This document shows, piece after piece, positions 58,710 through 62,934 of a DNA stretch of 64,000 bases. How positions within the stretch are numbered: the first letter of the stretch is position 1; every line of letters starts with the position of its first letter. The notes beneath the pieces are model-generated. The model made no database searches and was not told the DNA's origin. It saw only the letters and a list, made by a program, of their open reading frames with translations. The position numbers and the translations under genes are program-made. The stretch is from positions 1-64,000 of the forward strand of contig SBGP01000098.1 of assembly GCA_006226595.1 (NCBI GenBank). The letters are read 5' to 3'. This DNA is from Deltaproteobacteria bacterium. GTDB lineage: Bacteria; Myxococcota_A; UBA796; GCA-2862545.

Positions 58710-58787
58710 GGGCACCTCCGTGGGCACAGTGTACGCCGGAGATGCAGGCGGCGCGTTTCGGTGGCACCCTCGCCCCGTGGAGTGTGC

Positions 58788-60002
58788 ATGCAAGGAGCGG
58801 AAGCGCTGGCTCGCGCGGTGGATCGGCAGCGGCTGGACAACGCCCATCGCGTCAACCTGGTCCGACTGATCGGGGTCGGCGGATGGATGGTGTTCTGCCT
58901 GATCTTCGGGCTCGGATGGGGCAAGCCGTTCTTCACCGAGGCGCTGCCGACGGTGGCCGTGTACCTCATTGTCGCGACGGTCCTCTACTTCGGCGCTCGG
59001 TCGCGAGAGGCCATGGCCCAGGCCAGCGCCTACGCCCCTGCCCTGCTCGATCTGCCCGCCATCTTCCTGATCACGCGCCCGCTCGTGCGCCTCGCCGACG
59101 ACCCGGACGCCACCGCCGCCCAGACCGTCTCCATCCTCATGGTCGTGGTGGTCCTCACCGTGCTCGGTCTGCGTCAAAGCCTGCTGTGGCTCGCGTGCGC
59201 CATGGCCGCGACGATGGCCGCCTTCCTGCACTGGGAGGTGGGCTCCCCCGTGGTGACGATGATCACCGGGGCCTTCGTCGTGTTCCTGCTCGCCATCGTG
59301 TCGCAGTACGTGCAGGAGCGACTGCTGCAGCTCGCACAACGCCTCGCCGCCGAGCAGATCGCCCTGTCCCGCCTCGGTCGCTACTTCTCACCTGCCGTCG
59401 CCCAACGGATCCGTCGCGACCATCGCGACGACGCCAGCCTCGAGGAGCGCGACGTCTCGATCCTGTTCTGCGACATCCGGGGCTTCACGCGCCTCGCCTC
59501 GGAGCTCGACCAGGCCGACGTCGCCGATGTGCTCAACGCGTACCTCGCGCGCATGGTCGAGGTGATCTTCGAGCACGAAGGCACCCTCGACAAGTTCATG
59601 GGCGACGGCATCCTCGCGTACTTCGGCGCCCCGCTGACCCAGCCGGACCACGCCGATCGCGCGGTCGCGTGCGGCCTCGGCATGCTTGCCGCTCTCGACG
59701 AGGTGAACGCGACCTTCGCCGAGGCGGGACTGCCGCAGCTGCGCGTCGGCATCGGCATTCACTCGGGCCCTGCCCTCGTCGGCAACATCGGCCCGGCGCT
59801 GCGCAAGGAGTTCACGGTCATCGGCGACAGCGTGAACCTCGCGTCCCGCATCGAAGGACTGACGAAGGTGCACGGCGAGGCCCTGCTCGTCTCGGAGGCC
59901 ACCCGCGAGCGCATCGAAGGCCGCGACTGGCGCCCCATCAAGGCCACGCCGGTCCGCGGTCGCGTGGACCCGGTCCAGACCTGGGTTCCCCTCGCGCACT
60001 GA
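58788..60002 (+). CDS. Class III adenylate/guanylate cyclase with membrane region
   Basis: A 404-residue protein. Five or six hydrophobic helices span about residues 28-172, then a helical linker ([25 protein letters not shown]) and a class III cyclase domain. Metal-binding Asp229 (LFCDIRGFT) and Asp273 ([12 protein letters not shown]) are present, and the transition-state region reads [12 protein letters not shown] with Asn and Arg. It should make cAMP (or cGMP). ATG at 58788 follows GTGGAG. Convergent with the RNA candidate on the other strand; only 8 bases separate its stop from the terminator tail. Confidence 0.92.
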
Positions 60003-60010
60003 GCGCACCC

Positions 60011-60050
60011 GAAACGAAAGAACCCCCGAGATCCGAAGATCCCGGGGGTT
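60011..60050 (-). terminator. Intrinsic terminator read on the minus strand
   Basis: A 13-pair stem (60021-60033 with 60038-60050, one G-U pair) closed by a C(UUCG)G tetraloop when read on the minus strand, followed by CTTTCGTTTC. The T-rich side and the stable loop exist only in that orientation; the plus-strand reading has an A-rich approach and no T-run. As no minus-strand protein gene ends nearby, it marks the 3' end of the RNA gene candidate. Confidence 0.85.
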
Positions 60051-61257
60051 CATGATGACATCCGAACGGCCCGTGGAACGTCCCTGCAGAGGCTTGCGCA
60101 TCACCCGGGATTCGCGACTGCAAGCAGTCGCGGCAGCTCCTGAAGTTCGCCTGTTCTTCAGGGTCCCGGACGCAGCCGAACTGGTCGTCCATCGAACCGT
60201 CGCGTAGCGGGTGGTCTGGGTTCTTTCCCGCTCCCCTCGTGACCTTCCGCTGTCGCCAGCCGGGCCTCCAGGGTCTTCCGCGACGGTCCAGCGCGCGAGG
60301 CTGTCTCCAGTCTCGCGTGCGAACCCTCTGAACTTGGCGCTGCATGAGCGCTCTCGTGTGAGCCGGCTCGTGGTGTCGAGCCATCCTCTCGTGGGATTCG
60401 TTCGAGTGCGTGCCCCGCTGCCGACGGCACTGGGGGAGTCGCGCATCCGAGGCGGCCCCCAGGCCATCCTCGCGCTTCCGTCCTCGTGGTTTCGCACCAC
60501 CTCGACGGTTTCCTCCTCCCTCCAGCTTGCGGGCTTGTTGCATCCCACAGCCAGCCGGGGTTCGACGCGTTTCCGCGGACACCCGCCTCGGACCTCTCGG
60601 CACCGAGAACGAGCATGCGCTTTCCCGCATCGCTGTTCACACCCTTCGAAGAATACCCCTCACCGGCAGCCGTACCGCATCACTGCGGCCGTTACCCCCC
60701 TGGTGTTCCCTCGCTCGCCGCCGAAGCGGCGAACCGGTCAGGCGCCGAGGCTCCGGTCCGAAGACCTCCACGTCGACGCGGGACCTGCGCTGTCGCATCC
60801 AGGCTCCACCGCAAGCGGCTTCACCCGGGGCTCGAGCGGAGCGTCACCTTCGAGGTGTTGCTCCACCGATGAGTCCGTAGCATCCCCGAGCGTTGCCGCT
60901 CGTAGGACGCCCTATCCTTCCATGGGCTTGGTTCCCCTCCAAGGTCCGACCACGGCGTCCGAAGACGTCGCCTCCGCCCGCTCACCGTTCGCGCAAGCAC
61001 GAGCGGCTGTGGCCACCCGAGAACGGGGACCACCGAAGCGCCTGTGAGGCGCCCGACCGCGATGCCTCGCGGCCGACGACATCCCGGCGTGGGTTCCAGC
61101 GCATGAGCGCCTGCCCAGACCGTCTGTCCGGAGGTGTCGGTGCAGCCATTCGACGTCCCGAGGGACGCGGTCGACTGCCGACCTTCATGGGGTTTGTGAC
61201 GTCAAAGAGCGCTCCGAGGAGCGTTCCCTCGGTCGACACCGGTCGCCCGGAAGTCAC
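60011..61257 (-). ncRNA. Candidate large structured noncoding RNA (about 1.25 kb)
   Basis: No open frame here has the codon character of the neighbours. On the minus strand the stretch is dense in stable hairpins: C(UUCG)G loops at 60716-60731, 60755-60766, 60956-60967 and in the terminator; G(CUUG)C loops at 60113-60132 and 60809-60818; a GUGA loop at 60675-60688; long stems at 61038-61052, 61155-61166 and 61210-61223. On the other strand the UUCG loops would be CGAA, so strand choice is clear. A sigma54 promoter predicts a start near 61257 and an intrinsic terminator ends it. It is not RNase P, tmRNA, 6S or rRNA by any motif I know. The 1,489 bases 60003-61491 hold nothing else but the promoter region. 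Confidence 0.7.
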
Positions 61258-61266
61258 TTCCCAGCA

Positions 61267-61284
61267 ATGCAGGCGGCGTGCCAA
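61267..61284 (-). promoter_or_regulatory. Sigma54 (-24/-12) promoter
   Basis: Read on the minus strand the sequence is TTGGCACG-CCGC-CTGCA. It matches the sigma54 consensus YTGGCACG-N4-TTGCW at every position but one, and the GG and GC pairs are exactly 10 bases apart as required. It predicts transcription starting near 61257 and running towards lower coordinates into the structured region. The adjacent upstream gene on the same strand encodes a sigma54 activator. Confidence 0.82.
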
Positions 61285-61326
61285 CTCGCGCGAACGACGA
61301 AAGCTCGGTTTTCGCGGATTGCGGTG

Positions 61327-61462
61327 GGATCTGAACTTCCCGGGCTGCTCTTCGTCAGCTGTCCGGCTCGTGCGGACTCGCGGCGATCCCAGGCGCGAAG
61401 TGCCGCATCGTTACTGGCTCCTCGCCGCTGTGGCGAGCGCGGAACGCAGCGGGATCTGGACT
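61327..61462 (-). promoter_or_regulatory. Candidate enhancer sites for the sigma54 activator
   Basis: Upstream of the sigma54 promoter are three kinds of symmetric or repeated sequence: the direct repeat AGTyCAGATCCC (minus strand) at 61327-61338 and 61451-61462; the inverted repeat GTCCG-N7-CGGAC at 61361-61377; and CTCGCC-N5-GGCGAG at 61421-61437. They lie about 70-205 bases before the predicted start, the usual range for activator sites. Which one is bound cannot be told from sequence. Confidence 0.45.
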
Positions 61463-61491
61463 GCCCAAATGCGGATTGTGAAAACGACGGC

Positions 61492-62910
<1,419 letters not shown>

Positions 62911-62934
62911 GCGTTGCCCTCGCTGCACGCACGG

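Follow-up and report, generated by a model that had tools for sequence, protein, structure and literature searches.

The minus-strand -24/-12 element near the end of the window (the whole stretch of DNA analysed, 64,000 nt, positions 1 to 64,000 of contig SBGP01000098.1 of GCA_006226595.1) is very probably a genuine sigma54 promoter. It would drive a stand-alone, untranslated and highly structured RNA of ~1.24 kb, for which we propose a mode of working that combines an activator-operated switch, a boxA-type leader and a product acting in trans. Every copy of the RNA that could be checked in the window's order follows the same rare promoter of an on/off type, which speaks for a large structural RNA that is new and under tight control.

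Kilobase-scale structured bacterial RNAs are few, and how such RNAs are switched on and how they are transcribed without translation are mostly open questions. For the present RNA, comparative sequence shows all five parts, from promoter and activator site through leader and body to the end, and the type of promoter varies among lineages while the RNA core stays. RpoN, the activator, boxA and the function of the RNA are each directly testable by knockout and reporter. The features are listed in Table 1.

Table 1. Features of the RNA locus in the window, with 3' palindromes of two other genomes
Feature	Position	Strand	Basis
Sigma54-type -24/-12 promoter, TTGGCACG-CCGC-CTGCA-T	61267..61284	minus	sequence and conservation in homologs
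Putative transcription start (+1)	61257	minus	spacing from -12 only (C of GC at -12)
BoxA-like element, CTCTTTGA	61202..61209	minus	conservation, rRNA leader comparison, outgroups
Conserved GCGCTCTTTGACGTC enclosing the boxA-like element	61212..61198	minus	
Dyad CGGGAA-GTTCAG-ATCCCA (2 mismatches to TGGGAA-N6-TTCCCA), proposed bEBP site	61325..61342	none	
Weaker second dyad, TGGGCAGTCCAGATCCCG (3 mismatches), centre about -176	61450..61467	none	
Response regulator gene just upstream of the RNA	61492..62928	minus (same strand)	domain matches
Structured noncoding RNA, ~1.24 kb, putative +1 to terminator hairpin	60020..61257	minus	
Conserved block B, covarying helices	60840..60950	minus	
Conserved block C, covarying helices	60470..60715	minus	
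114-nt core, covariance model R1	60465..60578	minus	
Terminator-like hairpin, GAACCCCCGGGATC-TTCG-GATCTCGGGGGTTC, then TTTCGTTTCG	60020..60051	minus	
Convergent gene, adenylate/guanylate cyclase domain	58761-60002	plus	
3' palindrome sites	G049:C7:3983-4000; G053:C19:32711-32728, C53:43861-43878, C196:879-896		

The -24/-12 motif, its dyad and its leader

Read from 61284 to 61267, the motif is TTGGCACGCCGCCTGCAT, with 10 nt between the GG (61282-61281) and the GC (61270-61269), which is the right spacing for a -24/-12 element. It departs once from the sigma54 consensus TGGCACG-N4-TTGCA, as C replaces the first T of TTGC. The consensus is written as TGGCACN5-7TTGCT in PMC12316311. A sequence-only reading of this DNA had claimed a minus-strand match with correct GG/GC spacing, and the letters are present with this single departure; the start of the RNA predicted from the -12 position agrees with the one given there.

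That reading had also called the match unlikely by chance, which stands for the exact match. TGGCACGN5TGCA occurs once without mismatch in the window, and the stricter TTGGCACGN4YTGCA has 2 sites in the 7.23-Mb genome, compared with 0 and 0 in the pattern-reversed control. When up to 2 mismatches are allowed, the window has 17 matches to TGGCACGN5TGCA, fewer than the shuffle mean of 24.8, so that it is the near-perfect match alone that stands out. The motif by itself is thus good, yet not conclusive as proof of a promoter, and it is raised above chance because it is conserved in front of homologous RNAs. The genome's only other strict site (L216, G000:C3:29987-30003) is followed by sequence that resembles coding sequence by eye.

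Conservation in the window's order was scored with 46 full-length copies of the core, taking the best -24/-12 match within 2,500 nt upstream and requiring both GG and GC. In six of the 46 the contig stops 58-485 nt upstream, and these were left unscored. A site with at most 2 mismatches was found in 40/40 scorable copies, compared with 2 on the reverse strand and 0 in shuffles. Core and promoter are 387-2,074 nt apart in these 40, about 700 nt in the window and 2,042-2,074 nt in three copies from one genome (G003). Thirty-four of the scored copies have at least 2,200 nt upstream (34/34 with a site), and the other six, with shorter upstream sequence, were counted since the site was present. Because 22 of the 40 were first reached by a blast query containing the promoter, 11 were also found by a promoter-containing pattern scan and one is the window itself, the copies reached by the core alone are given separately; the site is present in 6/6. 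Two copies outside the 46-copy set, in G036 and a second one in G009 (G009:C41), were scored on their own and both carry the site, while weak core matches in G009, G052 and G000:C91 were left out of promoter scoring. GG and GC are invariant in 36/36 rows of alignment A2, whose rows were picked partly by blast or by the promoter-containing pattern.

Conservation of the motif before homologous RNAs, proposed as a check by the sequence-only reading, is thus seen throughout the scorable copies of the order but not across the phylum, where many genomes keep the core without the site (see below).

Upstream of the promoter, the centre of the dyad is 51 nt from the -24 TGG in the window. Among 39 promoters of the order, TGGGAA-N6-TTCCCA with at most 2 mismatches lies at -55 to -45 from the -24 TGG in 28 and anywhere within 300 nt in 31, and 11 have no dyad at the fixed place. 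In a first set of 54 regions, in which a few places occur twice and 8 regions are outgroups, the dyad occurred with at most 2 mismatches in 37/54 vs 1/54 in shuffles, the best match having 0 mismatches in 20 regions, 1 in 9 and 2 in 8. The N6 spacer gave these 37/54, compared with 12 or fewer for other spacers. The second dyad recurs at -174 to -177 in several relatives, and across the order's promoters its copies lie at about -127, -155 or -175.

A genome-wide dyad search with at most 1 mismatch in five genomes returned 35 places, of which 17 were taken as loci and 16 scored, L231, itself a copy of the RNA, being dropped as falling outside the centre rule. Among the 16 scored places, a sigma54 site 50-51 nt from the dyad occurs only at the RNA genes. 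L224, which is not an RNA gene, has a weaker sigma54 site 31 nt from its dyad.

We propose that TGGGAA-N6-TTCCCA is the expected site of a sigma54 activator, an enhancer-binding protein (bEBP). The product of the gene just upstream has receiver, sigma54-interaction and Fis-type HTH domains, and it is a candidate activator only, since the gene is not a conserved neighbour. Incidentally, G049 and G053 also have a palindrome of TGGGAA/TTCCCA type ~220-245 nt beyond the core, which places it within or close to the 3' part of the RNA.

The leader contains TCTTTGACGT, starting ~60-110 nt after the -12 element and hence ~50-100 nt into the predicted RNA. When duplicates by core sequence are removed, [CT]CTTTGA lies within 230 nt of the promoter in 20/22 order loci. 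For comparison with rRNA leaders, 16S genes were located in 5/38 and 5/27 genomes. Two rRNA leaders of the window's order contain GGTCTTTGAAA, sharing TCTTTGA with the RNA, and the following letters differ, GAAA in the rRNA leaders vs GACGT in the RNA. Two genomes of family f16 have GCTCCTTGAAAACT (TCCTTGA) in the rRNA leader vs TTCTTTGAAACTCT in their RNA. The likeness of the RNA leader to rRNA boxA rests on ~7 nt; TCTTTGA may be a boxA as in rRNA leaders.

RNAalifold found no covarying structure in block A (promoter plus leader), so its columns are conserved as sequence. Folded as single sequences, 35 leaders form hairpins, with the ACCG arm paired in 22/35 and a mean z of -1.9 vs mononucleotide shuffles.

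The RNA body

Conserved blocks of the RNA are colinear, with spacers between them that are very variable in length. In blocks B and C, RNAalifold finds helices with many double changes. Pairing in the core is kept in 98.8% of 489 cells vs 25-41% with slid partners, and double changes occur in 11/14 core pairs. For block B the corresponding values are 86.4% and 35-43%. The fold energy alone is modest (z of -3.6 with 20 shuffles). In addition, the RNA strand carries on average 1.9 purine-rich modules like AACCYCANGRRAG per RNA, whereas the other strand has 0.0 and mononucleotide shuffles have 0.09 (55 loci); they were counted with a regular expression that was written after viewing the sequences and has only one match in the window's copy.

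The window and 20 loci were compared with 4,227 Rfam families, none of which reached its gathering score; with the RNA region at E≤10 all matches were sub-threshold and none was credible. In G009, weaker core matches (G009:C41:590-726 and G009:C55:16079-16216) lie ~260 nt, start to start, upstream of strong ones, suggesting that the core domain is duplicated within one RNA.

At the 3' side, the convergent cyclase-domain gene shares the terminator-like hairpin with the RNA at its own end, and the hairpin could serve this plus-strand gene too. A crude-rule search for terminators in the 900 nt after the core was positive in 38/67 loci at varying distances; thus the 3' end of the RNA is not uniformly supported.

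Distribution, neighbours and promoter types

With blastn, the RNA stretch had matches in 23 of 58 genomes, its own included, and further copies were found in its own genome on contigs C1, C42 and C110. The core covariance model was searched in genomes of Myxococcota at E≤0.001 with stricter filters, the own genome being counted each time. Matches were obtained in 31/58 relatives, 40/71 genomes of the class and 69/377 genomes sampled from the phylum, with up to six in a single genome (G068).

The promoter-plus-leader pattern hit 37 stretches in a named genome collection, 33 of which also match the block A profile, though pattern and profile are not independent because the profile contains the pattern. 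Four hits without a profile match (L067, L083, L088 and L090) were treated as chance and rejected as RNA loci. The promoter-leader block is also carried by L089, titled a Klebsiella pneumoniae MAG, and by L087, an Oligoflexia MAG that has blocks B and C as well; the bins holding these two are probably mislabelled or mixed.

Assembly contigs often end beside or inside the RNA genes (L066, L072, L089, L093, L094, L098 and L099), and two contigs of G053 (C176 and C186) start near the dyad. Near-identical copies probably break assemblies, so that copy numbers are underestimated.

Several paralogs per genome, together with contigs that end beside or inside copies, could also mean that a mobile or phage-borne RNA element spreads its copies along with the promoter. 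We regard this as unlikely. Blastn against 50,697 phage records gave no match to the RNA, and two exact patterns gave none in IMG/VR. Gene neighbours are shared across three genera of the sister family f9, suggesting vertical inheritance, and no neighbour family was seen to recur when unannotated ORFs were clustered.

The neighbourhood also bears on a reading of the RNA as a large cis-acting leader or as antisense to its neighbours rather than as acting in trans, for which its convergence with the cyclase-domain gene ending at 60002 can be cited. This is decidedly unlikely, as clustering of neighbouring ORFs yielded small clusters only, mostly of relatives, leaving no conserved neighbour gene beyond small groups. 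Moreover, the genome has paralogs on further contigs, and the window's copy is closed by the terminator-like hairpin.

Promoters were compared more widely at 66 core loci, of which 15 belong to the window's order; nine of those 15 had also turned up in the promoter-containing scan. A sigma54 site with at most 2 mismatches is present in 27/66, whereas reverse strand and shuffles give 3 each. In sister family f9, which belongs to the same class, 1/15 loci has a site, and that one is a weak core match with an equal match on the other strand. In the rest of the phylum 11/36 loci have a site; 8 of these sites (families f24, f29, f36 and f41) keep a constant distance of 459-525 nt to the core, and 3 lie elsewhere. 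Altogether, 39/51 core loci outside the order lack a site at this threshold, the 51 covering all six f9 genomes and 28/30 other genomes of the phylum with a core match. As many genomes outside the order thus keep the core without the site, sigma54 control is lineage-specific rather than universal by the criterion of the sequence-only reading, which had named loss of the motif where the RNA is kept as counting against it. That lineages without the site lack RpoN was considered and ruled out, since RpoN is present in 34/34 genomes checked, these lineages and the window's genome included.

Among 38 loci without a sigma54 site, boxA-like [CT]TCTTT[GC]A occurs at -900 to -200 of the core in 20, a number that falls to 2 on the reverse strand and to 0.3 in shuffles. 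For 11 of the 20, a sigma70-like pair with at least 8/12 letters, a figure without shuffle control at this threshold, starts 154-171 nt before the boxA-like element; the pair is at 181 nt in one of the remaining loci, at 80 nt in another and absent in seven. At 9/12 letters anywhere upstream, 17/38 loci have such a pair vs 6/38 when shuffled. The eight outgroup loci with sigma54 sites at constant position have neither a dyad (≤2 mismatches) nor TCTTT in the 700 nt before the core, and so the set of promoter, dyad and boxA-like element is not universal. From these sequences, the RNA looks older than its sigma54 control, which would stem from a promoter swap in particular lineages; some other lineages have sigma70-type promoters.

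That some lineages of this phylum have the core without any sigma54 site does indicate that the RNA does not need sigma54 everywhere. It would also fit the -24/-12 match and the dyads being unconnected with the RNA, which would then be transcribed from elsewhere, e.g. by readthrough from the upstream regulator gene. We give this very little credence, because the order keeps dyad, promoter, leader and RNA together despite different neighbours, and because the sigma70-like pair standing at its place before the boxA-like element elsewhere is as if promoters had replaced each other.

Least credible of all is that the stretch is a protein gene or a decayed one whose mRNA the promoter serves: internal ORFs reach 278 aa (plus strand) and 160 aa (minus strand), with longer ones extending over the ends, but ORFs are expected in such GC-rich DNA, three of those inside or overlapping the stretch matched no Pfam family, no ORF family common beyond small groups spans it, double changes preserve base pairs and the spacers between conserved blocks vary greatly in length. 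A long RNA with covarying structure and, by Pfam on the three ORFs, no coding function has the properties of a large structured noncoding RNA, as the sequence-only reading had placed downstream of the promoter. The comparisons support that reading as a whole, in that a structured noncoding RNA would stand under a sigma54 promoter; the motif exists, and its meaning is most probably the one proposed there. The dyad and the boxA-like leader are further parts of the promoter region that the reading had missed.

Proposed working and known systems

We propose the following course for the promoter and the RNA. A bEBP would occupy the promoter-proximal dyad, and probably the second one farther up as well, and loop to RpoN-RNA polymerase parked on the -24/-12 element. 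ATP hydrolysis by the bEBP would then open the promoter, an all-or-none switch, with transcription starting at about 61257. The nascent leader would present hairpins and then the boxA-like UCUUUGA, on which NusB/NusE (S10) could assemble as on rRNA, so that Rho would not stop the polymerase within the more than 1 kb of RNA that is not translated. The terminator-like hairpin would end transcription. The RNA would be made only under the activator's signal. The promoter, the dyad, the leader element and the conserved, colinear and covarying RNA are established by sequence comparison, and RpoN dependence, bEBP binding, antitermination and the two ends of the RNA are inferred.

The product would be a multi-domain folded RNA acting in trans, as a structural RNA, i.e. 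an RNP scaffold or an RNA assembly. Function is the least certain part and the weakest link of the model, the analysis having turned up no conserved partner gene. We favour a structural or RNP role on account of the likeness to OLE, ROOL and GOLLD in covariation, size and free-standing position.

On a wider scale, we lean modestly towards a new class of giant structured RNA across Myxococcota, with one to several copies per genome and a body older than its control. Such an RNA may be an rRNA-like, antiterminated and switchable machine or scaffold, having a housekeeping-type promoter and a boxA leader in some lineages, and sigma54 with its own dyad in the window's order.

A literature search found no description of this RNA, and the main text of a 2025 survey of sigma54 regulons has none of the words 'noncoding', 'non-coding' and 'sRNA' (PMC12316311); the same survey says that M. 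xanthus does not survive loss of sigma54. Sigma54 control of noncoding RNAs is described for Qrr1 of Vibrio fischeri, a small RNA dependent on sigma54 and two activators (PMC10162802), and for GlmY, a sigma54-dependent small regulatory RNA (PMC6075780). The present RNA is like them in having a sigma54 promoter and upstream activator sites before a noncoding RNA. It differs from these small regulatory RNAs by its kilobase length, its structure and the boxA-like element in its leader.

The Pxr sRNA of Myxococcus xanthus is about one tenth as long as the present RNA, and PxrR is a sigma54 activator. According to PMC5684412, the small RNA Pxr consists of three stem loops, and a sigma54 promoter and an enhancer binding region are predicted for it, with the end of pxrR upstream. 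The two RNAs share the phylum, a predicted sigma54 promoter and a regulator gene upstream, but the upstream regulator of the present RNA is not a conserved neighbour.

In rRNA leaders, hairpins come before boxA. A CUCUUU-type stretch preceded by hairpins makes the leader of the present RNA, a predicted long transcript without translation, resemble those of rRNA operons with boxA (PMC4807359), and UCUUUGA is common to it and the rRNA leaders of two genomes in the order. The present RNA is unlike rRNA operons in that it is not rRNA, has sigma54 or other promoters and continues with ACGU after the element, where rRNA has AAA.

OLE, ROOL and GOLLD are, like the present RNA, large and highly structured bacterial noncoding RNAs with conserved structure, and they form homo-oligomeric complexes (PMC12286853). 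No homology of the present RNA to these three was found by Rfam at gathering score, in the window and 20 loci. What distinguishes it from them is its sigma54 promoter, its activator-type dyads and its boxA-like leader.
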